IMG/VR virus record: IMGVR_UViG_3300042565_000996
Location: 1 to 35,952 of that record
DNA length: 35,952 bases
Reading direction: 5' to 3' (one strand)
DNA from: a virus
How positions within the stretch are numbered: the first letter of the stretch is position 1; every line of letters begins with the position of its first letter. Positions 2,803 to 20,528 of the stretch are shown in pieces. The notes under the pieces are model-generated. The model had not been told where the DNA came from, ran no database searches, and worked only from the letters and a program-made list of their open reading frames with translations. A program made the translations under genes and the position numbers.

Positions 2803-5313
2803 TCATTTACCAAAGCTAAAAAACTTTGCCGCATTATTATTTTCTGGCAATACGCCCCACGTCATTGCTGCATAGAAATCATCTAGTTTGCCTTTTAATT
2901 CGCGTTCAAACTGCTTGTTACGATCAATGTACATTGCAACAAAATCTACAATCTCCGTAGGATCCTGGTAACCTTTAAGTGCCATGGTATCAAATCCATA
3001 TGGATTATTTCGAAGATATGCCCATTTCACTTTATCACCATCTTTGATAGAAACTACATCAGTTGTTAATGTTGTTAACATGTCATTGTAATTAATTGCT
3101 GATTTAACATGAGCTGGCGAACCAGATAAATATCCACTAAAAGGTTTACGTTTCTTAGTATATTTAGATATTTCTTTAACACCTGAATTCTTCATTACAC
3201 TTGTTAATTCTGCATTATTCAATGAATCTTTGAATTTTAAAATCATTTCAGATGTAGCTTGTTTGCTGTTTTGTTTCAAAATATACCATAATGTTTCTTT
3301 CATTATAGTTTTAAACTCATCTGGGAATGATGATCTAACTACATCTAATCCTTTAATATCCATTTTGTTAGTAGGTTTACCTTCTTTAAAGATAACCCAC
3401 TGTGCATATCTTTTCTTAGCAATCCATAAACCAGATTTTGCAACATATTCTTGTTTAATTGTGAACCGATGCGATTCTGTATTTAAAAATACTTTTGCAT
3501 ACTGGTTGTACATTGTGTTTACTTTAAGTTGTACTTCAGATGCAATTTCATTGGTTTTTTCAATCATGAATTGTTCGTCTGTTTCATCGAATCCAGGATA
3601 ACGATGCTGTATGAGCGGTAAACTAGAAACAAATGTTGAATCTGTGTCAGTATAAAATGCAAACTCAGCTTGTTGACCGGATGCATTAATAAAGTTTGAA
3701 TGTCCAATTTCTTTTTGGTAATGATTATTAATAACTTTTGCTGAAAATTTAATAATACTTTGTCCAGTTGCTGTAATAGCACCAGCATTATCTAAATCGT
3801 GGAATCGAAACGTTTTAAGTCCTAATACTCCATAAAATGAATTAAGCAATACTTTTTGTGTTAACTGCATTGCATCATAAAACTTATAATCATCACTACC
3901 TACTTCATATTCATCACGCTTATCTTTAAATTCTACCCGCTCATCAAACCATTTTGCTAGAATTGTTGGTAAAAATCCTTTTATATCGGTTCGATACACC
4001 GTTCCATTGCTAGCAACTGTATATTTATTATCGGTTAACCATTGTTTAACATCTGTAATCGTTTTGTTTCCAATTTGTACCGATACCGGATCAGTTTTTA
4101 ATAAACATGTTTCATCCCAATTAGCAATAACTCCGATCTTTGTTTCTGGAGATATGTTTAAACTCATAATGATACTCGGATACAGAGATGTTAAATCCAA
4201 GTCATATATCCATTTATACAATCCAGGCACCGGTGCCATTACATATGCACCTGCCAACACATCAGCTGCAGTTTCTTCTTCAATAAAACGGAATTGTTTA
4301 TTTGGAGCTACATATCCATTACGTTTTAAATCTACTATAGCAGCACCATCTAGATATTTAGATGCATAATAAACATCTTCATATGGTACATGTCCTTTAT
4401 GACATATAGTCCGTGCTAAGTTTATGAACTGTAACTTTTCATCTAATTCATAAACCAAATCGGTATCTGTCATGTTGTAAAAAGCAAACTTGTGAATATC
4501 TTGTGTAAAAAGAACATCTAAATCACCTTCATATTCAACTTTACCTCGACCCAATTCTAGTTTTGCAACAGTATCTAATCGATAATTTGGTAATTCGCTG
4601 TATGTAAAGTTTTTATATAGTTTCAAATAATCTAAACTAGAAACACCAAATATTTTCCATTTTTCCTTTTTTGGATTATAATCTACAATTCCAGCCGGAC
4701 TTAATTTTTTGATGGCATTTACACCTAATACCTTTTTAGCACGACCCAATAAATATGGAATATCATATCCATCAGTGTTCCATCCTGTAATTACAGTTGG
4801 TTGTACAGCCGCAAATATGTTTATAAATCTGGTTAAAAGATCTCTTTCGTCTCGAAATATTTCTAAAACATAACCATCGCCTTGTATTTCACGTTCTTTT
4901 ATGCGATTCAGTTCGTCTAATATAAGTACTCGTCTATCATTACCAATTTTATCATAATATGCAATTGATGTTATAGCCGTGCGCGTATCATGTATAGTAC
5001 TATATCCATTTTCATCTTTTGCTGTTTCAATATCAAAGAAAAAATCGCGATGTCCTTTTGATACTAAATCTGATTCATAGTATAAATCTATCAGGGTTCG
5101 GACTTCTTCATTTAGATCAGATTCGTATGAAGCAGGATTATCTTTATGATTTCCTGGTATCTGTTTTAATGTAGTGCCGTCTAATGATACATATGTTCCT
5201 GCAGAGTCTGGTAAATATGCATATGGTTTAAATGGAAATTTTTGATGTCCTAATTCATCATCCCACACGTGCATAGTACCGGATTTTCTGTCATATGAAA
5301 TATTTTGATACAT
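2803..5313 (-). CDS. 43: Family B DNA polymerase, T4 gp43 type
   Basis: This is the replicative DNA polymerase of the phage, with 3'-5' proofreading; at 836 residues it is slightly shorter than T4 gp43 (898). Exonuclease motifs are visible: FFFDIET with D94 and E96, WNTDGYDIPYLLGR near 178-191, and Y279-N-M-T-D283. Polymerase motifs follow: motif A DLDLTSLYPSI (D371, D373), motif B KVLLNSFYG (K487, N491, Y494-G495) and motif C YTDTDST (D556, D558). All catalytic acids are present. The C-terminal end FFSFGK may be the clamp-binding tip, as T4 gp43 ends in a similar hydrophobic peptide. The start codon follows the stop of the upstream membrane-protein gene with no gap (TAAATG), so translation is probably coupled. 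No intein or split is seen. Confidence 0.97.
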   Translation of the reverse strand: MYQNISYDRKSGTMHVWDDELGHQKFPFKPYAYLPDSAGTYVSLDGTTLKQIPGNHKDNPASYESDLNEEVRTLIDLYYESDLVSKGHRDFFFDIETAKDENGYSTIHDTRTAITSIAYYDKIGNDRRVLILDELNRIKEREIQGDGYVLEIFRDERDLLTRFINIFAAVQPTVITGWNTDGYDIPYLLGRAKKVLGVNAIKKLSPAGIVDYNPKKEKWKIFGVSSLDYLKLYKNFTYSELPNYRLDTVAKLELGRGKVEYEGDLDVLFTQDIHKFAFYNMTDTDLVYELDEKLQFINLARTICHKGHVPYEDVYYASKYLDGAAIVDLKRNGYVAPNKQFRFIEEETAADVLAGAYVMAPVPGLYKWIYDLDLTSLYPSIIMSLNISPETKIGVIANWDETCLLKTDPVSVQIGNKTITDVKQWLTDNKYTVASNGTVYRTDIKGFLPTILAKWFDERVEFKDKRDEYEVGSDDYKFYDAMQLTQKVLLNSFYGVLGLKTFRFHDLDNAGAITATGQSIIKFSAKVINNHYQKEIGHSNFINASGQQAEFAFYTDTDSTFVSSLPLIQHRYPGFDETDEQFMIEKTNEIASEVQLKVNTMYNQYAKVFLNTESHRFTIKQEYVAKSGLWIAKKRYAQWVIFKEGKPTNKMDIKGLDVVRSSFPDEFKTIMKETLWYILKQNSKQATSEMILKFKDSLNNAELTSVMKNSGVKEISKYTKKRKPFSGYLSGSPAHVKSAINYNDMLTTLTTDVVSIKDGDKVKWAYLRNNPYGFDTMALKGYQDPTEIVDFVAMYIDRNKQFERELKGKLDDFYAAMTWGVLPENNNAAKFFSFGK

Positions 5314-6164: not shown

Positions 6165-6941
6165 TCAAACTCCCCTTTTAGTATCATATGCCACGATATG
6201 GTCTCTTCCTGTCATGTTATAACCATGGTTAGCACACATTTCAAATACCAACGGATACATTTTAATCAATTCGTCTCTAGTATCACCAGCAGGCATTATG
6301 TACGTTTTATCCTTTGGAATATTATGTTGAATCCTAAACAATTCAATTTCTTGTAGATTCTCTTCAGTACCATCCCAGACTGGTTTATAGTGATAATCTG
6401 CGTGATATGCAATCATTTTATCTATCGCTTCGCTATTGAGACGGAATTTATTATGTTGCTTAACCATCTTTTCATCCGTAATCGTCCCTTGCGGTGTAGC
6501 AACGCCCACAACGGGTACGCTATTGGCAAACTTAGGACTAATAGAAAGGAGGCCAATAGGGTAATCAGTTTCAATATAATGAGAACCTTCAGTTTCAATA
6601 GTAATAAGAATATCTCTTTCATGTGCAAAATGTGTCAATTCATTAACTAGTGCTGGATGCATTGTCGGGGATCCTCCAGTTAACATCATTTCTTTAATAT
6701 GTGGATTTTCGTCGTAAATTTTAATAATATCATTGAATGTAAAAGTACCTTTTTCTGGATGAATTGAACTGTACCAGCTATCGCACCAGCCACCTTCACC
6801 AAAATAGCATCGATGAGTGCATCCGGTAGTGCGTACTGCGATTGTTGGTCTACCAAATCGGCTTCCTTCTGATTGCACACAACGATATAATTCTATGATT
6901 GGCAATGTTTTATTGTAGTCTGTTATTCTTCCTGGCTTCAT
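6165..6941 (-). CDS. queE: 7-carboxy-7-deazaguanine synthase, radical SAM
   Basis: QueE converts 6-carboxytetrahydropterin to 7-carboxy-7-deazaguanine using S-adenosylmethionine and a 4Fe-4S cluster. The protein has LYRCVQSEGSRFGRPTIAVR, the usual QueE opening, then GCTHRCYFGEGGWCD, where C41, C45 and C53 would hold the cluster (spacing C-x3-C-x7-C, longer than the usual x3/x2), the GGSPT strand as MLTGGSPTMHP, and LLSISPKFAN like the family's SPK segment. I start it at 6941 rather than at the longer in-frame ATG at 6995 because AAGGA lies four bases upstream of 6941 and this removes a 47-base overlap with the preceding gene. It is 258 residues long. FolE and QueD lie just upstream. Confidence 0.88.
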   Translation of the reverse strand: MKPGRITDYNKTLPIIELYRCVQSEGSRFGRPTIAVRTTGCTHRCYFGEGGWCDSWYSSIHPEKGTFTFNDIIKIYDENPHIKEMMLTGGSPTMHPALVNELTHFAHERDILITIETEGSHYIETDYPIGLLSISPKFANSVPVVGVATPQGTITDEKMVKQHNKFRLNSEAIDKMIAYHADYHYKPVWDGTEENLQEIELFRIQHNIPKDKTYIMPAGDTRDELIKMYPLVFEMCANHGYNMTGRDHIVAYDTKRGV

Positions 6942-6948
6942 AAATTCC

Positions 6949-7320
6949 TTAAAATGGTAGGTCGTCATCGATTGACTCAACACTATTGGTAACATTGGTA
7001 TCTAATTTTTTAATTAATTCATCAAACTTATTTTCTAATGAATATAAACGTTCAAGTAAATAACGCAAATCAGCCTGTGCTAATTCAGAAGCAAATGTAT
7101 CACCGGGTGTAGTTTTGCCAAAGTATTCATCTAGAAATGATTTTGGATATGTTGCTACTCGATTATATTCTGGTCTAGATAAGTCTGGTGGTAGATCTTG
7201 ATAAATAACATGAATATTTTTTGACTTTGCAGCTTCATACACTTTTTGACCTAGTCCACTTTCTCGAGATGCTTTACCACTGTAATCATACAGTGACATA
7301 TATTGATCATTACTCTTCAT
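6949..7320 (-). CDS. Unknown protein with SSB-like acidic tail
   Basis: This 123-residue protein is not recognised. The first two thirds look like a small globular domain (YDYSGKASRESGLGQKVYEA, then KSFLDEYFG). Residues about 85-108 (LRYLLERLYSLENKFDELI) look like a coiled coil. The last residues ESIDDDLPF match the conserved C-terminal tip of bacterial single-stranded DNA-binding proteins (DDDIPF/DDDLPF), which recruits repair and replication proteins. No OB-fold is evident, so it does not look like an SSB itself. It may attract host SSB-binding proteins or compete for them. It sits between QueE and a 71-residue unknown. Confidence 0.6.
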   Translation of the reverse strand: MKSNDQYMSLYDYSGKASRESGLGQKVYEAAKSKNIHVIYQDLPPDLSRPEYNRVATYPKSFLDEYFGKTTPGDTFASELAQADLRYLLERLYSLENKFDELIKKLDTNVTNSVESIDDDLPF

Positions 7321-7323
7321 GGT

Positions 7324-7539
7324 TTAGTTATTTGGTTTAACCGTTATTGTATATTTTCTAGTATAACTAGAATCCTCGTTTTTTACTAACACACCTAGTA
7401 CTGGTATAAATTCGTTAGGATCAAACATAATTGGTGTAACAACAACACTTAGATTGGAGTTTTCTAAAGCAATTTTAATTTGTTGAGTTATTGCCATCTC
7501 ATTAACTTCTACTTTCATTTGGTCTTTATTATTGTTCAT
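7324..7539 (-). CDS. Small unknown protein
   Basis: This 71-residue protein has no recognisable domain. Its central part (TQQIKIALENSNLSVVVTPI) looks like a helix then strand, and it ends in a strand-rich segment (YTRKYTITVKPNN). The start overlaps the 3' end of QueD by 11 bases and the stop lies 3 bases before the next start, which supports it as a real operon member. Confidence 0.5.
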   Translation of the reverse strand: MNNNKDQMKVEVNEMAITQQIKIALENSNLSVVVTPIMFDPNEFIPVLGVLVKNEDSSYTRKYTITVKPNN

Positions 7540-7993
7540 AACTTGCTGAATTTCGTTCGTGTTCGTATACTTCTATTTTGATAGCTTTTACTCGGCCTTC
7601 TGTTTCTTCTTTTAAGAATGCATTTATTACATAATATAAATGTTCTGCAAATTTTTCACATCCAGTAGCTGGTAAAATTCTTAATTGAATAATACCATCT
7701 TCATCCATTTGTTTGAATTTATCTAAATATGGATCATCTAATGCAACGATTGTAGTATGATCTAATAAAAATGTAAAATAATCTTTTGGAGACATACCTG
7801 CAATTTGAGTTTTAGAACGCTTCATACCGCCAAAATCCCATACCCAATTACGATGATCTAATTCTCCTTCAAACCATACTCTAAATGATACAGCATATCC
7901 ATGTAAGAATTTACAATGAGTATCTTCTGCTTTCCATTGACGGAAACAAGTTGAGTAACCATCAAATAATTTTGTTGAAATGTAACGTGCCAT
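7529..7993 (-). CDS. queD: 6-carboxytetrahydropterin synthase-like QueD, phage variant
   Basis: QueD turns 7,8-dihydroneopterin triphosphate into 6-carboxy-5,6,7,8-tetrahydropterin, the second step of the 7-deazaguanine pathway. The protein (154 residues) has the signature THCKFLHGYAVSF (catalytic C27, H31), the catalytic Asp-His as LLDHTTI, the ILPATGCEKFAEHL helix, which replaces the usual NPTAE, and the closing EVYEHERNSASYE with the pterin-binding Glu. Two zinc ligands differ from E. coli QueD: H33 of HGH is Tyr, and the first His position is Cys (C16 in STCFRQW). This looks like a phage-specific branch rather than damage, since the rest is intact. It lies one base from FolE. Confidence 0.88.
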   Translation of the reverse strand: MARYISTKLFDGYSTCFRQWKAEDTHCKFLHGYAVSFRVWFEGELDHRNWVWDFGGMKRSKTQIAGMSPKDYFTFLLDHTTIVALDDPYLDKFKQMDEDGIIQLRILPATGCEKFAEHLYYVINAFLKEETEGRVKAIKIEVYEHERNSASYEQ

Positions 7994-7994
7994 A

Positions 7995-8699
7995 TTAATT
8001 ATTATAACCTTTTACAAATTGATAAAATTCTGATCTTGCGTTGCCATCTTCTAAAAATGCACCAGATAATTTCGCAGTTTTCATTGAAGCACCACCATGC
8101 TTAACTCCTCGACATTGCACACAGTTATGAGTTGCTTCAATCATTACTGCTACACCTTTATTGTTTTCGATAAGTTCATCAATTGCGTGGTGGATAGCAA
8201 CAGTTAATTGTTCTTGAATTGCACCTCGTCTGCCAAAGTGCTCAACTACTCGATTCAATTTACTTAAACCAATAACGTTGCTATTTTCACCCGGAATATA
8301 TGCAACGTGAACTAGACCCATAATAGTTTGATGATGATGGCTACACATTGATGTTAATGGAATACCTCCTTCAAACACAATGCCATCGTATCCATCACTT
8401 GGAAATGCTGTAATATCTGACATTGGTTCATATCGACCGGCCCATAAGTCATTTACATATGCCTTTGCTACTCGCCGAGGTGTATCAGCCGAGTTTGGAT
8501 CAGATTCCCATGTTACGCCTAATGCGGTTAAGAATTGACCATAATGATATGCAGCTTTATCGATAATAGCTTGTTTTTCTTCTGTAGTCAATCTAGCATC
8601 TGGACCTTCAATCGATTGTTTTGTTGCTAACTGAATAGAAACTCCATTTGCAAAGCCAGGATGCACTAATTCTAAATTTGTTCTTTGTTTCGTTGTCAT
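7995..8699 (-). CDS. folE: GTP cyclohydrolase I
   Basis: FolE opens GTP to dihydroneopterin triphosphate, the first step of folate and 7-deazaguanine synthesis. The 234-residue protein has the zinc motif TSMCSHHHQTIMGLVHVAYI (usually CEHH), the SKLNRVVEHFGRRGAIQEQL helix region, and the second zinc segment ATHNCVQCRGVKH. The usual length is about 200-220. The N-terminal 40 residues are a variable extension. It is followed at once by QueD and then QueE, which shows it feeds 7-deazaguanine synthesis rather than folate. It starts a run of closely packed genes. Confidence 0.95.
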   Translation of the reverse strand: MTTKQRTNLELVHPGFANGVSIQLATKQSIEGPDARLTTEEKQAIIDKAAYHYGQFLTALGVTWESDPNSADTPRRVAKAYVNDLWAGRYEPMSDITAFPSDGYDGIVFEGGIPLTSMCSHHHQTIMGLVHVAYIPGENSNVIGLSKLNRVVEHFGRRGAIQEQLTVAIHHAIDELIENNKGVAVMIEATHNCVQCRGVKHGGASMKTAKLSGAFLEDGNARSEFYQFVKGYNN

Positions 8700-11450: not shown

Positions 11451-12818
11451 TTATCCTAAAGTTCCACCCAAATCTTTGAATTTTTGTGCTAAATTTTTCT
11501 TCATAACATTTTCGCCTGTTTTCATAACTTGTGTGGTCTGTTTGCCTTGTGTTGTTTGTGGCTCAAAAAATTGAAATTGGCCGTTGTTTGTGTTAATTTT
11601 ACTAGGCAAGGTAATGCCATCTGGGCCGAACCGATTCTTAATAACGTGACCTCTACCTGTACCTGACATTTTATCTTCAACCTTACGAGACAATGACATC
11701 AAGAAGTCAGCTACCATCACTTTTCCATATGATGATGCAATTTTATCTGCTTCAATAATATCTTCTTCTAACGCACTTCGACCTGCTTGTGATGCCGTCC
11801 AAACCGGAATATCATACTCACCTGCCATTCCTCGTAACTCCTCGTAAAGTTCTTCTAATGCCTCGTGTTTGTCCTTTTTTGTATTGATTTTTAACAAATC
11901 ACCATAATCTACAATTACAACATCTGGCTTTTTACCTAGCATAATAGTTTTTTCTAAATGAGCTTTTAATCCCATTACGCCAACTGATTTAGTTGGAAAA
12001 TATTTTACAATCAAATCACCGCGTAAACTTTTCATTTTATCTTCAACTGTGTCTTGATGATTTTTTAAGCTCTGTGCATTAATACCAGTTAATACCGAAT
12101 CATAACGTTGTCCTACATAATTTTCATTAAGTTCTAATGTGTAATGTATTACGGTATGACCTGCCTTTACTGCATTAGCTCCAATGTTAATTAAGAGCCA
12201 TGATTTACCAATACCAGCTGGTGCCATTACTACACCTAATTCACCTGGAGCTAATCCGCCGTCCATTAAATCATCAATAACATCCCATCCGGTTGTAATT
12301 GTATGACGCGATGCTTCGGCGTATCGAGCTGATATATTAAGTTTATATTCTAACCCAATATTAGTATCAGCACCAGCTTTCATTGCTGTATCAATCTTTG
12401 ACTTTATTTCATCATAATTTCCACGTTGCAACAAATTAACCGAATCCATAATTGCCCGTTTAATTTCCTGATTTTTACAGAAATTAAGTATTTCATCTTT
12501 GACAAAACTTAAATCATCTGATTCCATGTATCGGAACACATCTTTAAGTTGTTCTAGTATTGCAGTTTTAAGTATAGATTCTGGACCAGATTCACTTAAT
12601 GCAGTTAATCGAACTTTTAAAACATCTTTTGTTGGGGGTGTTTTATATTGTTGAAAATGATCTAAAACTGTTTCTAATACCCAATTATTTGCATCTGATT
12701 CGAAATACTCTGGGCGAATAATATCGGCAATTTGTTGTAAAAATATTCGGTCGGTAAACATTGCTGCTAAAACTTTTACTTGAAAGCTCCAGCCATATTC
12801 CGATAGTTTATCTGTCAT
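11451..12818 (-). CDS. 41: Replicative DNA helicase, DnaB/T4 gp41 type
   Basis: This 455-residue protein is the fork helicase. The N-terminal part (about 1-150) is helical as in the DnaB N-domain. The RecA-like core has the Walker A APAGIGKSW (K205, S206), the ELNENYVGQRYDSVLTG helix region, the Walker B DVVIVDYGDLL (D304), and SLSRKVEDKMSGTGRGHVIK before the NRFGPDG segment, which carries the arginine finger and DnaB motif 4. T4 gp41 is 475 residues. It works with the family B polymerase, gp32-like SSB and UvsX genes around it. A terminator follows. No primase gene is visible in this window. Confidence 0.93.
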   Translation of the reverse strand: MTDKLSEYGWSFQVKVLAAMFTDRIFLQQIADIIRPEYFESDANNWVLETVLDHFQQYKTPPTKDVLKVRLTALSESGPESILKTAILEQLKDVFRYMESDDLSFVKDEILNFCKNQEIKRAIMDSVNLLQRGNYDEIKSKIDTAMKAGADTNIGLEYKLNISARYAEASRHTITTGWDVIDDLMDGGLAPGELGVVMAPAGIGKSWLLINIGANAVKAGHTVIHYTLELNENYVGQRYDSVLTGINAQSLKNHQDTVEDKMKSLRGDLIVKYFPTKSVGVMGLKAHLEKTIMLGKKPDVVIVDYGDLLKINTKKDKHEALEELYEELRGMAGEYDIPVWTASQAGRSALEEDIIEADKIASSYGKVMVADFLMSLSRKVEDKMSGTGRGHVIKNRFGPDGITLPSKINTNNGQFQFFEPQTTQGKQTTQVMKTGENVMKKNLAQKFKDLGGTLG

Positions 12819-12854: not shown

Positions 12855-13913
12855 TTATTTTTTATGTGTTTGTTGTGCAAATGCATTTAGTGATAACCAT
12901 GTATTATTTAACCAATCTGGTAAATTTTTCATAGTTGACCACATTTTGTCTTCCATGAATAATCTTTGAAATTCCATTTTGTTCATCATTGGAATCGGCT
13001 GATCTAATATACCTCGAATTACCGTAGCACTCTGAGCTGGAATATCTAATAATTTAATATTCATTAAACGATAATTCTTATCAATAGTATCCTGATTTTC
13101 TAGTATTTTACCATATGTTTTTGATTCATTTAAATTATTAGTGCATTTATTAAATAATGCATCTAACGTAAACTCAGTAGTATCAGCAAGTTCGGGTAAT
13201 GTTTTTATAATTGTCTTTGGACCTATTCCAGATACCCCGGGTATGTTGTCAGAGGTGTCGCCTGTAAATGTTCGATAAATAACATAGTTATTTGGATGTA
13301 CTCCAAATTCATCTAATAATGCTTGTTCGTCATACATTTTCTTTTTGATAGGCGACCATACTTGAATTGTAGGACTTATTAACTGATAAAAATCTCTATC
13401 CGTTGAAACTATGGTAATTTTTTTAGAAATACCTTGATACATATCAGCAATATATGCAATCGTATCATCTGCTTCGATACCATCAATTGAAATAAATGTT
13501 ACTGGTAAATTATCTAGATATGATACTAATCGAGAAAATTGCCAACGCATTGCTTCCTGTTCATCTTCAATTGTAGCAAATTGTTGATGATCGTGTCTAC
13601 GTAAACGTGTTTTATTTGCTCGATTACCTTTATAATCGCCGTAAATCTTTCTGCGACGAGCAGATCCGCCTCTACCATCAAACACGATAACTAACCGAGA
13701 TGGTTTAAAATCTCGAACTACTTTACCTATTGAAAATAAAAATCCAGTAATTCCTCCGATATGATCACCATCTTCATTTGTAGATGGAGTTGCTCCAAAC
13801 GCTCTAATAAAGGTGTTTAGCCCATCAAGCACCATAATATGATCATTGACACTTGATGGACTATTTTCCTTTTCTTGTTGTAACTGTTTGAATAGCTGTT
13901 GATACCTGTTCAT
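12855..13913 (-). CDS. rnh: 5'-3' exonuclease (RNase H/FEN-1 family)
   Basis: This nuclease removes RNA primers and flaps from lagging-strand fragments, like T4 RNase H (305 residues); here it has 352. Metal-binding acids are in place: VLDGLNTF (D30), VIVFDGRGGSARR (D79), IEADDTIAYI (E147, D149, D150), STDRDFYQL (D172, D174) and TGDTSDNIPGVSGIGPKT (D219, D222) with a helix-hairpin-helix that holds DNA. The C-terminal part is helical and may contact gp32. Its ATG shares one base with the stop of the UvsX gene, so the two are translationally coupled. Confidence 0.92.
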   Translation of the reverse strand: MNRYQQLFKQLQQEKENSPSSVNDHIMVLDGLNTFIRAFGATPSTNEDGDHIGGITGFLFSIGKVVRDFKPSRLVIVFDGRGGSARRRKIYGDYKGNRANKTRLRRHDHQQFATIEDEQEAMRWQFSRLVSYLDNLPVTFISIDGIEADDTIAYIADMYQGISKKITIVSTDRDFYQLISPTIQVWSPIKKKMYDEQALLDEFGVHPNNYVIYRTFTGDTSDNIPGVSGIGPKTIIKTLPELADTTEFTLDALFNKCTNNLNESKTYGKILENQDTIDKNYRLMNIKLLDIPAQSATVIRGILDQPIPMMNKMEFQRLFMEDKMWSTMKNLPDWLNNTWLSLNAFAQQTHKK

Positions 13914-15076
13914 TAAGCTTCTTCGTCTATAACCTCATCTGTAATAATTACGTCATCAATACCGCCATCGATACCAGCTTGATACTTAAAGATATACGCA
14001 TCGCATATTCTTTTATACAATCGATCTTTAATCTCTGGTTGATTGATTACCTTATCTACAAATGTTTTTGATTGAAATTTAATTTCTCCAAATACTTCTC
14101 CAGTTTCAATATCAGTGTCATCTAATGTATAATGAGCTCCTGATTGTTTTACTAGATTGTATTTTTTCATTGTTTCAAGCCATCCACCATAGTTATCAAT
14201 ACCACTATCATAATAGATGTCATAGTTGATTTTTCGATGCGGAGGACCCATTCTGTTTTTCACTACTTGTACTTCAGTCTTACTTCCTACCACTTGTTCA
14301 ACGCCTTCAACTTTGGCTTTAATCATTCCAGTATTCTTAAGACGAAGACGTACAGATGCATGAAATGGAATCGCTTTACCACCCGATGTTGTCCACGCAT
14401 CGCCGAATGATACCCCTAATTTAGTTCGTAACTGATTAGTCATAATCAAACAAATTCTTTCTCGTGCAATCCAGTTAGTTACCTTACGCATTGCTTTTGA
14501 TAGAATAATTGATTTACTGGTAGCATATCCATCTTTGTCATATTCAGCAGCCATTTCTATTTTTGTAGATGCACCCATAATAGAGTCAACAATAATAGTA
14601 ACGAGACGATCTTTATCTGATTTACGTACCTGTTCAACAATAGTTTCAATTGTTTCAAAAATTTCTTCTACTGTTTCTAATGGAACATATAACATTGATT
14701 TCAAATCAATTCCAATAGCTGACATAAATTCAGCACTAGTTGCTGCTTCTGTATCAATATAAACTGCTAATCCACCTTTTTTCTGTGTTTCTGCAGCTAC
14801 ATGAGATACTAATAAAGACTTACCTGATGCTTCTAATCCGGTAACTTCAGTTATCCGACCTACTGGGAATCCTCCGTTCGATCGGTTTGAAATCGCTAAA
14901 TCGAGCATATCACAACCAGATGAAATCCATTCTGTTACATTGCTTGGTGAATCAGCATCTCCTTCTAAAAAGAAAGCTGTTTTAAGAGCTTGCCCTTTAA
15001 ATTGCTTGTTAATGCTATCAGCTAATGTACTTGCTAATGAGTCTTCCAGTTCCAGTTTGCTTTTACTCTTTGCCAT
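13913..15076 (-). CDS. uvsX: RecA-like recombinase, T4 UvsX type
   Basis: UvsX pairs homologous strands for repair and for recombination-dependent replication. The protein has 387 residues (T4 UvsX 391). Walker A is GLEASGKS (residues 80-87), and the Walker B strand is VTIIVDSIM. The MTNQLRTKLGVSFGDAWTTS segment matches the L2/DNA-binding loop of the family, and the RMGPPHRKINYDIYY segment is shared with RecA proteins. A strong AAGGAG lies before the start. The C-terminus is acidic (DDVIITDEVIDEEA), as in many RecA proteins. It follows the gp32-like gene by 13 bases and precedes the 5'-3' exonuclease with a one-base overlap. Confidence 0.95.
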   Translation of the reverse strand: MAKSKSKLELEDSLASTLADSINKQFKGQALKTAFFLEGDADSPSNVTEWISSGCDMLDLAISNRSNGGFPVGRITEVTGLEASGKSLLVSHVAAETQKKGGLAVYIDTEAATSAEFMSAIGIDLKSMLYVPLETVEEIFETIETIVEQVRKSDKDRLVTIIVDSIMGASTKIEMAAEYDKDGYATSKSIILSKAMRKVTNWIARERICLIMTNQLRTKLGVSFGDAWTTSGGKAIPFHASVRLRLKNTGMIKAKVEGVEQVVGSKTEVQVVKNRMGPPHRKINYDIYYDSGIDNYGGWLETMKKYNLVKQSGAHYTLDDTDIETGEVFGEIKFQSKTFVDKVINQPEIKDRLYKRICDAYIFKYQAGIDGGIDDVIITDEVIDEEA

Positions 15077-15089
15077 TTATAACTCCTTC

Positions 15090-15866
15090 TTAATTAAAAA
15101 GATCATTGAATGCTGATGCTACGTCATCAACTTTACCTGCTACTGGCTTTGCAGCTTTTGCTGGTGTTGAAACGCCTTGTGCCTCTTCTTCTTCATCAGC
15201 TGCTACATCTGAATCTGCATTTTCAGGATTCATCCATTCTGTTAATGCAACTTCTAACTCTTCATAAGTTGGTTCAGGAAATATGTCAGTAATTACTGGT
15301 TGATTCATAATCTTTTCAGCAATTGCTTTATCTTCTGTTGCTGGCTGTGTGTTTGGTTTCACTCGAATTGCAGTTTTTGGAAATGCACCACCTTCTGCAG
15401 GAGTAAATTCTACATCAATATCACGACCATTCATTAAATCTGTAATGTCTCCATAGTCTGGATCAGAGATAATTGATAATAGTTCTGCGTAGATAGTTTT
15501 ACCAAATCCCCAAAACTTTACACCTTCTGCTTCTTTACCGCGCACGATAACAGGTACATAAGTTCTCATTTTAGGCTCAATTTTACGACCCATCATCCAT
15601 TCATCCTTATCGCCAGTTTTTTTTAGTTTGTCTGAAAACTCTACGATTGGATCTGCATTGCCGAATGAGATCGGTGATAACATTGATCTTTTGCCAATGT
15701 CGTAATGAAAATACAATTCTAAGAATGGATTGTCTTTTCTGTGCACATATGGCACGATACGGATTCTTGTTTTACCTGCTTCAGGTTTCCACAAATTGTT
15801 TTTCTTTTCATCAGTTTTGTTCAACTGATTGAGTTTTGCCTTTATGGCATCTAAATTTAAGCCCAT
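15090..15866 (-). CDS. 32: Single-stranded DNA-binding protein, T4 gp32-like
   Basis: This is the likely phage SSB: 258 residues (T4 gp32 301), directly upstream of UvsX. It has a basic N-terminal segment, a core with KTRIRIVPYVHRKDNPFLEL, FHYDIGKRSMLSPISF and VKFWGFGKTIYAEL, like gp32's IRFLPS and FRFGKKIW strands, and an acidic linker (ADEEEEAQG) followed by an Ala/Lys/Pro segment and FNDLF at the end. gp32 binds one zinc through His and Cys residues; this protein has no cysteine at all, so the zinc module is lost or replaced. A sigma70-like promoter lies at 15916-15943, and AAAAAAGGA supports the start. The AT-rich leader may allow gp32-style self-repression; this is an inference. Confidence 0.85.
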   Translation of the reverse strand: MGLNLDAIKAKLNQLNKTDEKKNNLWKPEAGKTRIRIVPYVHRKDNPFLELYFHYDIGKRSMLSPISFGNADPIVEFSDKLKKTGDKDEWMMGRKIEPKMRTYVPVIVRGKEAEGVKFWGFGKTIYAELLSIISDPDYGDITDLMNGRDIDVEFTPAEGGAFPKTAIRVKPNTQPATEDKAIAEKIMNQPVITDIFPEPTYEELEVALTEWMNPENADSDVAADEEEEAQGVSTPAKAAKPVAGKVDDVASAFNDLFN

Positions 15867-16477: not shown

Positions 16478-16903
16478 TTATTTTGAAAATCGATATGCGT
16501 AACTGCTAGTATCGCCGGATTGGATTGCATATGCGTGTTGTAACATACGATTAAGATTATCTCTTACATCTCGGTAAGTTCCTTGCCATCCGCTATATGT
16601 TTTTGAATATGGATATAATTCTAAAAATGCATTTATAAAATCCATAGTAGTCGCACTGCCAGGCGTTTTATCTTTATAGATTGATAACAAATCCATCACA
16701 TCATTTTTAAACTCAGCCATATCAATACGAGCTCGTTTTATTCTAGAATAGTTTTGTTCTAGTTTAGATAAAAAACTATCCTGTATTCTTTGATCTGCTT
16801 CGGCATCTAATCCAGTCGTTTTACCTAATTGTGCTGGCGACTTATAATCAGCAGGATTCCATTTCTGCTCATCTTCTTTTAATAAATGTTTTAATTTTAG
16901 CAT
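16478..16903 (-). CDS. Unknown protein with LxE leader
   Basis: This 141-residue protein starts MLKLKHLLKEDEQKW, with LLKE at residues 7-10 in the same place as the LLTE and ILAE of the other leader proteins here. The rest is helical and charged (EQNYSRIKRARIDMAEFKND), with a C-terminal YAIQSGDTSSYAYRFSK. There is no catalytic motif that I recognise. TAGGA and an ATATTTAT element (16923-16930) lie upstream. Its stop is six bases from the next start. Head cargo is the inferred role. Confidence 0.58.
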   Translation of the reverse strand: MLKLKHLLKEDEQKWNPADYKSPAQLGKTTGLDAEADQRIQDSFLSKLEQNYSRIKRARIDMAEFKNDVMDLLSIYKDKTPGSATTMDFINAFLELYPYSKTYSGWQGTYRDVRDNLNRMLQHAYAIQSGDTSSYAYRFSK

Positions 16904-16922
16904 AGTTATTCCTATTACTTAT

Positions 16923-16930
16923 ATAAATAT
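16923..16930 (-). promoter_or_regulatory. ATATTTAT element
   Basis: The minus strand reads ATATTTATATAAGTAATAGG, 19 bases before the ATG at 16903, touching the stop codon of the upstream gene. Confidence 0.4.
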
Positions 16931-17316
16931 CAATTCCAAGTAATTTTCTTAAAAAATACCAATCCAACAACACGATATCCAGCATCATCTGTTAATATAA
17001 ATGAATTTTGATATTTACTCCAATCCAATTGATATGTTTTATCTAAAACTCCGTTATTAACCGTTCGTATAACTTCATTAAGTGCATTAACCGTATACAA
17101 GGTATTTGTTTCTTTTTTACGGTGTATGCTTATTGTGTTTTGTCCTCTGCGACCAGAATCGATAGCATTGTATGTGCAATACAAATTGTCTGCATGATCT
17201 TCGTTTGCAAATACAAATATTCGACGTTCTGGAATCTCGTAGTTATGTTGTATGTATTCGGATATAATGTTTAAATCCGTTTTATGTGCAAATGTGCAAA
17301 GTAGTTGTGTTTTCAA
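16930..17316 (-). CDS. Conserved-looking phage protein, unknown function
   Basis: This 128-residue protein is not named. It opens MKTQLLCTFAHKTDLNIISE and has a distinctive central HRKKETNTLYTVNALNEVIR segment followed by LDWSKYQNSFILTDD. The alternating strand and helix pattern suggests a compact alpha/beta fold. It has no membrane segment. It overlaps the candidate nuclease gene by 4 bases, so it belongs to the polymerase-nuclease unit. Confidence 0.55.
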   Translation of the reverse strand: MKTQLLCTFAHKTDLNIISEYIQHNYEIPERRIFVFANEDHADNLYCTYNAIDSGRRGQNTISIHRKKETNTLYTVNALNEVIRTVNNGVLDKTYQLDWSKYQNSFILTDDAGYRVVGLVFFKKITWN

Positions 17317-18563
17317 AGTTCATATTCCTCAGTTATATCCGTATCGCTTAAATCAATTTTATCTGAACCAATTGCCGTTTCTATTATACGTATTTTTCCG
17401 GCATCTATAACTACATATCTAAATTCGTTTGTAACTCGTATACGATCTTTTCTAAAAACAATAAATTGTAAATCGTTACCTATAATTGAATCAACAGCTT
17501 CTTGTAAATCTACATCTAACATTTCTGGTTGTCGTACGTATTTTAATCGACGAAGTTCTGTGTTAATATATGTAATGTCCTGACTACCATCATCGATAGG
17601 CTTAATAGTTACTGATCCATCAATTGTTTGTTTTAATGGCTCAATTGACATTTCTATAGGAGTAGCATTTGGTCCGCGTAAAATAACATTAGTATATCCT
17701 TGTATTTCAGAATTTAATAAGTTAGCTTCTCGATAAAATTGCATTAAAAATTGTTTATCTTTCATATTTAAATTTCCAGCTAAAATAAATGTGCGCCGAT
17801 CATCTAAATATGCAATAGAATTTAACAACGATTCGTTAAAATATTTATGAAATTTAAATTTTGGGTTTTCAACAGTTCCTCGTAATTGATCTAGACGTTT
17901 CAAAGTTGTTACTATTTCATCCCAAAATTTAAATCTAGTAACACTAGCTTTAGTACCCAATCGAATCGATTTAGCATTTCCTTTCCCACCAGTATAATCT
18001 TTTATTTCATAGGATCGTCCATTTGCTGTCATATCAAATGATACTCCGCTGCCGTTTATTCGTGATCCTTTGATTAAAGATGCTAATAAAATTTCACCTT
18101 TTCCTATACCCTTAGGTTCTAATTTGAATAAATCATGTCCAATGCCGGATTTGAAGTTTATAGTATTTAACTCATCCTCTGTAACATCATTCAATGTATA
18201 TAACAAAGAAGCAAACATTACAGATTGTTCCGAATTCAATTGATTTAAAAAATTTAAAGTTATAGCATCTGCTTCAGTTGGTAATAAATTTAAAAATTCT
18301 CGAAATTCATTGGTTTTATTTGCTTGTTGAATTGCATTAATTAATAATTGATTTTCGATAGAATCAAATTGTATAGATTCAGTAACGAGTTGTTTAACGT
18401 TACCTCGAGCTCGTTCTACAATCAGTCGTGCTTCGTCTGGAGATATATTTACCACTTCTAATAAAACATCATATAATGTCTCATAATCTTTAGATGCAGT
18501 AGGATATCCTTTTGGTAATCGATAACACCATTCTGTTAATATTAAATTAATGTCTATGTTCAT
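17313..18563 (-). CDS. Candidate PD-(D/E)XK nuclease with LxE leader
   Basis: This 416-residue protein is not in a family I can name, but the middle carries a likely nuclease core: GKGEILLASL (E157), SFDMTANGRSYEIKDY (D177, then E186-I-K188) and GNAKSIRLGTKA. A helix Glu, then D-x8-E-x-K on two strands, is the usual PD-(D/E)XK layout. The N-terminus MNIDINLILTEWCYRLPKGY has an ILTE site at residues 8-11, like the leader proteins nearby. The C-terminal half is mixed alpha/beta and ends acidic (SDTDITEEYEL). It overlaps both neighbours by 4 bases. If the leader is a head-targeting signal, it could be an injected nuclease; otherwise it may act in DNA repair with the upstream polymerase-like protein. 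Confidence 0.55.
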   Translation of the reverse strand: MNIDINLILTEWCYRLPKGYPTASKDYETLYDVLLEVVNISPDEARLIVERARGNVKQLVTESIQFDSIENQLLINAIQQANKTNEFREFLNLLPTEADAITLNFLNQLNSEQSVMFASLLYTLNDVTEDELNTINFKSGIGHDLFKLEPKGIGKGEILLASLIKGSRINGSGVSFDMTANGRSYEIKDYTGGKGNAKSIRLGTKASVTRFKFWDEIVTTLKRLDQLRGTVENPKFKFHKYFNESLLNSIAYLDDRRTFILAGNLNMKDKQFLMQFYREANLLNSEIQGYTNVILRGPNATPIEMSIEPLKQTIDGSVTIKPIDDGSQDITYINTELRRLKYVRQPEMLDVDLQEAVDSIIGNDLQFIVFRKDRIRVTNEFRYVVIDAGKIRIIETAIGSDKIDLSDTDITEEYEL

Positions 18564-19882
18564 AACGAGATTGTTTTCATTTTACTATAAATATTAGCAA
18601 CTTTCACTTTTACTGGAAAATTACCTTGTTCCAATGCCTGTTTTATCTGTGGTATGAGTTGTTGAGCTTCTTCAAATTTACTGTCTATCAAAATACTATC
18701 ATACGTGTACAATATGAGTTTAGTTTCATAGTCGTGTAATATTTGTTGAACTGTTTGTAATTTTTGCACAGATACCTCCGTTTCCATTGCTTGTAAATAA
18801 TAGTTAAACACTTTGTTTGCGGTTGGATTTGAAATCATATCATGTGTAATTTGTCGTTTTAAAATCGGTGTTTCTATTCGCTTTTTTGTTTTCCAAGTAT
18901 TCCATAATGAATAAATAAAATCATTTACCTTAGCAAAAAATGGAACGGATAAAAATTCTCGATCGATTCCACCATATAACAAACGAAATGTTATTTGTTT
19001 GCTTTGTTCGTATTGTTCTTCTGTTAATTGTTCAGTGTCAAAATAGAACCGGCCAAAATATTCATGCACAGATCCAGCCGGTAACTCATATCCAATTATC
19101 CTAGCAATCAATCTAACATGATATGCATCAAAGTCCATTTCCACTAATGCTCCATTATCAAATCTGCTACAAAATGCTGCACGTGTACCATCTTCTTTGT
19201 TCATTGCAGCAAAATTGAATCCTCGAGCTGCATTACTAGGTCGACCCGTAACCGTGTGATAGTTATAACTTGAATACACTCGACCAGCATTAACTAAATC
19301 TGGCATACGGAATGTTTCATTAACAGCTAATCCCGTGCTTTCAATTTCAGCAAAAACTTTAGGATATATTTCATTGAACCGTAAATATGAAGTTGACAGT
19401 TCGGCATTCATACACATCGGCCAAGCATATTTTCTAATTTTCTGACACATAGCTAAATGTTGTTGTAATGGCACAATTGCATTAACATGTGCTAATGTTT
19501 GATGACGTCGCCAATAAAATGAATGAGCCGTTGTTGGATAATGTGATTCATCATATGCTTCATTGTATGTATACCACCATAACGTCTTTATATCCAATAC
19601 GGCATCATTTCCTCCGATTTGAAGCCAGGTTTTCTTGTCATGGACAAATATATTGCGTAATGCTAAAAAGTCTGGCAATCGTTTTGAAAACCCGGTTATC
19701 TGTTCTGTATGCCGGATTGGTATTAATCTTTCTACATCATCTTCAGTATAAATATAAATTGCAATAACTGGATTAATAACAGGATGTAATACTGGACTTG
19801 ATAGTATTGGTATTAACAGAGTTCGCTTCTGTGCACAGTATTGCAATATTGCATCAATTTCATCTGCATGATCCGTTATCAT
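18560..19882 (-). CDS. Family A-like DNA polymerase, reduced
   Basis: The C-terminal 240 residues follow DNA polymerase I motif order. TGR (212-214) comes first, then GTRAAFCSRF, then motif A LVEMDFDAYHVRLIARIIG (D250), HEYFGRFYF where DIH normally stands, motif B EQYEQSKQITFRLLYGG (K295, YGG 303-305), and motif C LYTYDSILID (D395). Both catalytic Asp are present. The O-helix Arg of R-x3-K is Tyr, and HDE is YDS. The end FPVKVKVANIYSK matches the family's final strand. Residues 1-170 look like a decayed exonuclease-type domain (IFVHDKKTWLQIG, DIKTLWWYTY) without the DTET motif. At 440 residues it is far shorter than Pol I. The phage already has a family B polymerase. It is coupled by a 4-base overlap to the candidate nuclease. 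Confidence 0.75.
   Translation of the reverse strand: MITDHADEIDAILQYCAQKRTLLIPILSSPVLHPVINPVIAIYIYTEDDVERLIPIRHTEQITGFSKRLPDFLALRNIFVHDKKTWLQIGGNDAVLDIKTLWWYTYNEAYDESHYPTTAHSFYWRRHQTLAHVNAIVPLQQHLAMCQKIRKYAWPMCMNAELSTSYLRFNEIYPKVFAEIESTGLAVNETFRMPDLVNAGRVYSSYNYHTVTGRPSNAARGFNFAAMNKEDGTRAAFCSRFDNGALVEMDFDAYHVRLIARIIGYELPAGSVHEYFGRFYFDTEQLTEEQYEQSKQITFRLLYGGIDREFLSVPFFAKVNDFIYSLWNTWKTKKRIETPILKRQITHDMISNPTANKVFNYYLQAMETEVSVQKLQTVQQILHDYETKLILYTYDSILIDSKFEEAQQLIPQIKQALEQGNFPVKVKVANIYSKMKTISL
18587..18594 (-). promoter_or_regulatory. ATATTTAT element inside the polymerase-like gene end
   Basis: The minus strand reads ATATTTATAGTAAAA, 23 bases before the ATG at 18563, within the last codons of the polymerase-like gene. 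It may give separate late transcription of the nuclease. Confidence 0.35.
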
Positions 19883-19919: not shown

Positions 19920-20528
19920 TTATTGATTAATATCTGCAGGTACCACGTAATCCGAGTCAGAATAATATTGTAATAAATCAGTAAAGAATGTAAATATATC
20001 AGGAATCGATTCTTGTAACTTGGTTAGTGTTTCTAAGTTTTTAGTGTATACACCTGGTTTTAATACGCCACCTTCATATACATCGGTAGTTGGTCCGGAG
20101 ATATACCATTTAAACTGAAATGCTTGGTATAAATTATTATCTATTTGCCGAGCAATCCATTTTGTATATTGACCTGAATCGATTTCGGTTATTAAATTTT
20201 TATTTAACTGATATAAAATATATCTAGTAATGAATCCAGCTGTACGATCTGCTTCTGTGATTGTTGGTATACTAGTTACCGGCGGATCAAATTTTGTTTG
20301 TACAGTTTTTATTCTTTTGTACTGTTTCGTTAACTCGGATTCAAATACTATAGCAAATAATTTGATTGATGTTTGTGGATTCCATGTTGCACCAGAAAAT
20401 ACTTCACCGGTAGTGTATGTATGATATGGACCTATATATTCTTTCTGAGCTGAATTCATTAACTCAGATCCAGTAGTATATAGATTTTTAGTAATCTGAC
20501 TTGGGGTGTAATGTAAACGTTGTCTCAT
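19920..20528 (-). CDS. Tail/baseplate-associated structural protein
   Basis: This 202-residue protein has the stretch LYTTGSELMNSAQKEYIGPY then HTYTTGEVFSGATW, a pattern seen in structural proteins that sit beside baseplate genes in T4-related phages. The rest is helical with QIDNNLYQAFQFKWYISGP. It overlaps the hub-like gene by 4 bases and is the last member of the tail block before the polymerase-like gene. The exact place in the virion is unknown. Confidence 0.55.
   Translation of the reverse strand: MRQRLHYTPSQITKNLYTTGSELMNSAQKEYIGPYHTYTTGEVFSGATWNPQTSIKLFAIVFESELTKQYKRIKTVQTKFDPPVTSIPTITEADRTAGFITRYILYQLNKNLITEIDSGQYTKWIARQIDNNLYQAFQFKWYISGPTTDVYEGGVLKPGVYTKNLETLTKLQESIPDIFTFFTDLLQYYSDSDYVVPADINQ

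Follow-up and report, generated by a model that had tools for sequence, protein, structure and literature searches.

A thumbless divPolA1-type family A DNA polymerase encoded at the head of the replication genes in a T4-like phage with a family B polymerase

Yutin et al. (2024; PMC11348598) described, by computation, a family A DNA polymerase (PolA) named divPolA1 in 14 phages, among them the Flavobacterium phage vB_FspM_immuto (immuto in the following), with genomes of 155-190 kb. As set out in the sections of that paper on divPolA1, the palm is preserved, the thumb is truncated and the exonuclease is inactivated; the regular polymerase of these phages belongs to family A, B or C, replication genes lie downstream of divPolA1, and it is divPolA1 that owns the conserved replication context, the role of the regular polymerases being called less obvious. 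A second reduced PolA, divPolA2 of the barbaviruses, likewise stands beside a family B polymerase (PolB) and lacks an ordinary thumb, but by its published description it has a different N-terminal domain and a variable gene neighbourhood (PMC11348598). Among the matches listed in the open literature, the name divPolA1 appears only in this paper and its preprint, with no experimental work under that name. Here, we analysed a viral DNA of 35,952 bases (IMG/VR virus record IMGVR_UViG_3300042565_000996, positions 1 to 35,952; the whole stretch is called the window), in which an intact open reading frame at positions 18560-19882, on the minus strand, encodes a 440-residue protein that, judged from its sequence, is a further member of the published divPolA1 family.

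The protein matched the Pfam family DNA_pol_A (PF00476) with an expect value (E) of 4.8e-8 and 32.8 bits, below the curated cut-off of 34.3, and the PHROG_17 DNA polymerase family with E 4.7e-7; at E 1e-3, PF00476 was matched by 44 of 55 relatives, in some of which the cut-off was exceeded. Evidence from the single sequence is modest, a phmmer search of the PDB with the window protein giving no real match; profiles make the relationship clear, and a 55-member profile found the Klenow fragment there (E 5.4e-8). Profile-profile alignment was carried out against nine full PolAs picked out of 17 comparison PolAs, namely those of E. coli and T7 and 15 phage proteins, four of which are near-identical and come from immuto-type phages (of twelve other phage PolA regions collected, eleven entered the set; Fi4S2, whose gene is split, was omitted). 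It returned a probability of 99.4 and E 2.7e-21 over 420 columns under default settings, or 425 with a looser setting; against three PolAs alone, residues 191-423 were covered (E 6.8e-11). An AlphaFold2 model built from a 55-row alignment reached a predicted local distance difference test score (pLDDT) of 93.5 and a predicted template modelling score of 0.91. With this model, Foldseek ranked family A polymerases best (top E 3.1e-19; 246 chains at E <=0.001), and VIA-align gave Klenow-type polymerases as the best solved matches (Z 28.6, 3.5 A, 410 residues), residues 1-436 of the model lying on residues 302-876 of the Bacillus polymerase. Given these Pfam and PHROG, profile and Klenow-type structure matches, the family A match is far above chance. 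Thus, the proposal of a reduced family A polymerase, made in an initial annotation from the letters of the DNA, is borne out; that annotation had named a predicted structure lacking a palm as evidence to the contrary, and almost the entire model matches Klenow structures that possess a palm.

Relatives were drawn from four viral contig scans (the best 80 loci each of 246, 445, 312 and 109 relatives) and from annotated phages. The 315 matches were reduced to 293 full-length proteins by removing 22 incomplete or short ones, and to 208 distinct ones, window included, by removing 85 duplicates; they form three clades (92, 58 and 57 proteins) and one singleton, with 22-33% identity between groups. 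Motif A was among the seeds of the searches, as one of six patterns in three viral scans and one of two in another viral scan and in a scan of genome contigs, so that proteins without D250 or H255 (see below) are somewhat under-sampled. The genome-contig collection gave three divPolA1 matches, all in metagenome-assembled contigs. In a collection of 50,697 phage records, six were strong divPolA1 matches and 16 further records were weak matches to annotated DNA polymerases; the six represent at most five genomes, since MW353175 is present a second time as its reference copy NC_055915; three of these are immuto isolates. An identical protein is encoded in a viral contig of 159,977 bases (L004), and LR756508, which carries a relative, measures 484,177 bases.

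The main structural departure from Pol I is a deletion. In the profile alignment, 91 residues of E. coli Pol I (552-642), which we take to be the thumb of the Klenow structure, have no counterpart in the window protein, the junction falling at residues 191/192 (positions 19307-19312, minus strand); this gap was the same under three hhalign settings, and the next largest gap was of 10 residues. The interval from G184 to T212 comprises 17-35 residues in all 208 divPolA1 proteins, as against 121-289 in the matching interval of the 17 full PolAs (121 in E. coli). These statements are based on the profile alignment and the structure match and not on our MAFFT alignment, in which the N-terminal helices of the small proteins are not aligned with Pol I helices and which leaves 62-81 residues in the thumb stretch of its 12 small proteins (121-289 in the full PolAs). 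Because the Pol I-type thumb of family A is missing from the window protein in the profile alignments, we file it as a divPolA1 variant and not as an ordinary Pol I. Upstream of the deletion, residues about 1-135 (19478-19882, minus strand) form an exonuclease-like remnant, recognized by model and profile alignment, which retains the exonuclease fold in outline with its catalytic acids replaced: Asp355 and Glu357 are represented by Pro25 and Leu27, and the alignment has gaps at Asp424 and Asp501. The rougher MAFFT alignment puts Ile and Ser at exonuclease acid places of the window protein and, in the relative from the Microcystis phage Mel-JY01, one Asp at the place of Glu357.

Downstream of the junction, motifs A, B and C follow in order within a Klenow-type palm and fingers, as seen in both the profile alignment and the structure match. 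Motif A (D250-F-D252-A-Y-H255; 19118-19135, minus strand) places D250 at Asp705, D252 at Ser707 and H255 at Glu710 of E. coli Pol I, the last being the sugar (steric) gate of that enzyme (PMC13228545). In motif B, the O-helix (Y291...K295...F299...Y303-G304; 18971-19012, minus strand), Y291, K295, F299 and Y303 correspond to Arg754, Lys758, Phe762 and Tyr766, respectively, and motif C (Y394-D395-S396; 18695-18703, minus strand) corresponds to His881, Asp882 and Glu883; R214, N360 and Q364 correspond to Arg668, Asn845 and Gln849. The Pol I residue is kept in 208/208 proteins at positions 214, 250, 295, 299, 303, 304, 364 and 395, among them catalytic and template-contact residues, and Asn360 in 207/208. 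Three residues differ from Pol I with the same constancy, in all 208 proteins each: D252 (Ser707 in Pol I), H255 (Glu710) and Y394 (His881). The comparison PolAs have Glu at 710 and His at 881 without exception (17/17), and at 707 none has Asp and one has Glu, so that an acid at this place is not unique to divPolA1. (In one of them, fJoAci04, the MAFFT alignment has Gly at Lys758, probably through local misalignment.) The pattern D-[FY]-D-x-[YF]-H was found in all 208 proteins and in three further metagenome contigs, one of which (L375) was reached via another seed pattern. In seven gene pairs the ratio of non-synonymous to synonymous substitution rates (dN/dS) was 0.055-0.139, the most distant pair being near saturation (dS 1.6). 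The divPolA1 gene is thus under strong constraint; a decaying pseudogene is ruled out by these ratios and by the invariant catalytic residues.

The initial annotation had located D250, K295, Y303-G304-G305 and D395 correctly, and had rightly recognized a decayed exonuclease domain; loss of both Asp in homologues, which it had offered as a test, was seen in none of the 208 proteins, neither residue ever being lost. It overlooked the thumb deletion, and the changes that it singled out were in part the wrong ones. Tyr does stand at the Arg754 place in the window, but not as a family trait: 157 of the 208 proteins have Tyr at this position and 51 have Arg, every Arg belonging to the window's own clade, which rules out Arg754-to-Tyr as the key change. 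Likewise, the window reads YDS where Pol I has HDE, but at the third place (Ser in 92, Ala in 116 of the 208) Ser for Glu is common in phage PolA, with 8/17 comparison proteins carrying it. The constant changes are those at 710, 707 and 881. The text of the divPolA1 sections of PMC11348598 contains neither these constants nor the linked 128-residue gene and the primase count described below, and a term search of its main text found no position 710 and no histidine; the substitutions may stand in its figures.

Comparison with the nearest systems places the window protein in known company. The divPolA1 of immuto is homologous to it (tblastn E 2e-51, 30.2% identity over 90% of the length), and what the window has in common with published divPolA1 comprises an extra PolA beside a regular polymerase, kept palm motifs, a truncated thumb, replaced exonuclease acids and replication genes downstream. 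The regular polymerase is of family B in the window and of family A in immuto, and nothing was found that sets the window protein apart from divPolA1. With the Klenow fragment of E. coli and Bacillus it shares the fold over 410 residues, motifs A, B and C and the equivalents of Arg668, Asn845 and Gln849, but not the thumb, the exonuclease acids, Glu710 (His), Ser707 (Asp) or His881 (Tyr). The 777-residue regular PolA of immuto (gp199), which is also of family A and shares its genome with a divPolA1, has an exonuclease domain (PF01612), a stretch of thumb length before the TGR motif and Leu762, and falls outside the divPolA1 clade. That clade has a support of 100 and a long stem, so the phylogeny that the initial annotation had called for separates divPolA1 from the large PolA; a duplicate of the same phages' large PolA is thereby ruled out, deeper branches being poorly supported. 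This Leu at position 762 is a trait of the regular PolA of immuto-type phages (L315, 16899-19232), and the variant has been discussed for viral PolAs (PMC6302109, PMC13228545).

Gene order was compared in 229 loci with distinct proteins at the start, counting for each gene only loci with enough flank; counts are given for the window-like, immuto-like and Mel-JY01-like clades in that order. In all three divergent clades divPolA1 heads a run of replication and recombination genes just after the last tail genes, in the order tail, divPolA1, 128-residue protein, gp32, UvsX, 5' nuclease and helicase. In the window the genes given here with coordinates are all on the minus strand. The gene immediately upstream, which closes the tail-gene run, encodes 202 residues and has no assigned function (19920-20528; 64/64, 51/52 and 41/41 loci). 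Close downstream is the gene for the 128-residue protein (16930-17316; 54/54, 27/27 and 34/34, or 115/115 loci), followed by a gp32-type single-strand DNA-binding protein (15090-15866; PF08804, E 4.5e-13; 33/33, 22/22 and 28/28), a UvsX/RecA-type recombinase identified by family matches (13913-15076; 27/27, 17/18 and 24/24), a free-standing Pol I-type 5'-3' nuclease (12855-13913; PF02739, E 3.8e-32, and PF01367, E 7.8e-12; 17/17, 17/17 and 20/21) and a DnaB/gp41-type helicase, also from family matches (11451-12818; 17/17, 15/15 and 19/19). The initial annotation was therefore right about tail genes upstream but not in placing the gene far from the replication block, as the genes from gp32 to helicase follow downstream on the same strand, about 2.7-7 kb away. 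The 5' nuclease is of the Pol I/SPO1 kind: in the phage collection its six best-ranked relatives belong to the six divPolA1 records, and the best-ranked ones outside this group are SPO1-type.

The 128-residue family is present in the same six of the 50,697 phage records as the strong divPolA1 matches; both families may just mark one lineage, and for this reason co-occurrence alone is no proof of partnership. Its model is confident (pLDDT 93.6), and family and fold searches gave no convincing match; the strongest fold hit (Z 5.9) covers mainly the first 64 residues, and the protein may still have a known fold. The gene apparently starts with TTG, overlapping the stop of a 416-residue gene (17313-18563, minus strand) that is inserted between divPolA1 and the 128-residue gene in the window clade (55/55 loci) and in neither of the other two (0/28 and 0/38). 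The start of the 416-residue gene overlaps the divPolA1 stop by 4 bases, and there are 4-base overlaps with both neighbours. Searches of Pfam and PHROG with this protein gave nothing at E 0.01; by eye its stretch FDMTANGRSYEIKDY resembles a PD-(D/E)XK nuclease motif, and a weak relative occurs in LR756508 (E 3e-4).

As proposed in the initial annotation, divPolA1 is a second polymerase beside one of family B: an 836-residue gp43-type PolB, the regular replicase, is encoded at 2803-5313 on the minus strand (PF00136, E 6.1e-40; PHROG_262, E 4.5e-171) and carries exonuclease and polymerase domains. To place this in the wider group, 20 records picked for length were surveyed (the window, 16 viral contigs and three phage genomes), five of which, of the Mel-JY01 clade, lack any PF00476 match to divPolA1. 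A regular replicase was found in 19, as PolB in 12 and as a PolA of about 780 residues in seven; the remaining 114-kb contig, which may be incomplete, has neither. divPolA1 therefore stays while the main polymerase switches family, and it keeps its position in front of the replication and recombination genes, whichever family that polymerase belongs to. In two records the PolB matches lie in two separate open frames, of 610 and 306 residues in G015 (behind L296) and of 1022 and 625 residues in LR756508 (L084), as split genes, introns or inteins. A homologue of the DnaG-like primase of immuto was found in 14 of the 20 records, from all three clades, and a search with the zinc-ribbon family alone gave weak matches, below cut-off, in 6 of the 20; the window, whose record is a fragment, contains none. 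With a primase in 14/20 records, divPolA1 is not the sole possible primer maker, and replacement of the primase as its only function is unlikely.

divPolA1 is very probably an active polymerase. The best explanation, to which we give about an even chance, is that it is an accessory DNA polymerase of the divPolA1 type in replication, taken loosely. The protein combines a Klenow-like palm and fingers with an inactivated exonuclease domain and lacks the thumb; without thumb or proofreading, such an enzyme would bind DNA weakly and add few nucleotides per binding event, which argues that it does not copy the genome. It may instead fill short gaps on DNA coated by gp32 and UvsX, after the linked 5' nuclease has taken off RNA primers or flaps, the two proteins amounting in effect to a Pol I split over two genes, and the 128-residue protein may provide the missing grip. 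This specific role, distributive gap filling together with the Pol I-type 5' nuclease, is more tentative, and we hold it at somewhat below an even chance.

Several points weigh against it. The polymerase activity is itself a prediction from computation. In T4, primers are removed by RNase H and gp43 alone fills the gaps, so that a special gap filler is dispensable in principle. The divPolA1 gene lies 37 bases from the tail genes and could therefore be transcribed with either the tail or the replication set; promoters, terminators and the TATAAATA motif around the gene were not notably above shuffles and are uninformative. Several genes separate the 5' nuclease gene from divPolA1, and nucleases related to it (1,777 records altogether) are encoded by many phages that lack divPolA1. 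The 128-residue protein may be a partner by virtue of its linkage, but in the window's clade the 416-residue gene separates the two. Finally, the metagenome-assembled contig L375 encodes, at about 8001-8620, the palm and fingers of a divPolA1-like protein, complete with the motifs D-Y-D-A-Y-H and Y-D-S, but a stop codon interrupts the frame shortly 5' of motif A and the N-terminal half is unmatched; this is a broken or N-terminally reduced copy, and in the latter case the N-terminal half may be dispensable.

The same losses would also suit a repair or translesion polymerase, in which an open site free of a thumb would accept damaged templates or intermediates of recombination, for UvsX-dependent repair and not for primer gaps. 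Proofreading residues and thumb are gone, gp32 and UvsX are in the same gene run, and the O-helix Arg is Tyr in three-quarters of the family (157/208). Retention of divPolA1 in every clade with readable gene order fits a routine role at least equally, and family A enzymes that act in translesion synthesis, Pol theta for example, contain insertions, unlike divPolA1, which is a deletion variant; we regard this explanation as unlikely. The motif A changes raise a different prospect, in which Glu710-to-His and Ser707-to-Asp rebuild the sugar gate and the metal site to give a ribonucleotide-tolerant polymerase or a primer maker. The constancy of both residues, in the 208 proteins and the three further contigs, speaks for it, as do the gate Glu of all 17 comparison PolAs and the absence of Asp at 707 among them; but a DnaG-like primase is present in 14/20 records of three clades, the equivalents of Phe762 and Gln849 are retained, Glu occupies 707 in one comparison PolA, and the sugar gate may still work because His is as bulky as Glu. 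This makes such an enzyme rather less probable still, even if the constant D252 and H255 would leave room for altered sugar selection. An elaborated form, a re-tooled family A enzyme in which an added acid at the metal site and a His as sugar gate allow it to take ribonucleoside triphosphates or extend RNA primers, with the 128-residue protein as a thumb in trans, appears improbable to us.

Two further explanations lie at opposite extremes. divPolA1 could itself be what replicates the genome, with the interchangeable regular polymerase as an auxiliary, as its fixed replication context (noted also in PMC11348598) and the change of family of the other polymerase between clades would allow. It would then have to serve without thumb or proofreading in phages for which the longest contigs of our set span 160-177 kb, and the window's regular PolB has both exonuclease and polymerase domains; we give this little credence. 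Conversely, the loss of thumb and exonuclease residues, and the change of three residues that are Pol I-type in nearly all comparison PolAs, might point to a catalytically dead scaffold that keeps the polymerase fold for protein contacts only. With both Asp and the equivalents of Lys758, Tyr766, Arg668 and Gln849 invariant in 208 proteins, this seems the most improbable of all.

Other genes of the group deserve brief mention. The window encodes a QueE-like radical SAM protein (6165-6995) and a GTP cyclohydrolase I (7995-8699), both on the minus strand and both steps of a 7-deazaguanine pathway, and the immuto genome has an annotated DpdA, which suggests modified DNA. In Microcystis phage Mel-JY01 (L083), a 428-residue gene near divPolA1 (16769-18055), annotated as hypothetical, matches S-adenosylmethionine lyase (PF23780, E 4.4e-10). 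Rhodothermus phage RM378 (L368) has a tail-region protein in common with the group (6966-8342; 26.9% identity over 27%), and gave no match to the divPolA1 profile.

Thus, a polymerase fold predicted to lack both thumb and proofreading is maintained under strong constraint in many aquatic T4-like phages, and so probes how much a family A enzyme can do without. The constant changes in motif A and the linked 128-residue gene make this orphan computational family open to testing at the bench.

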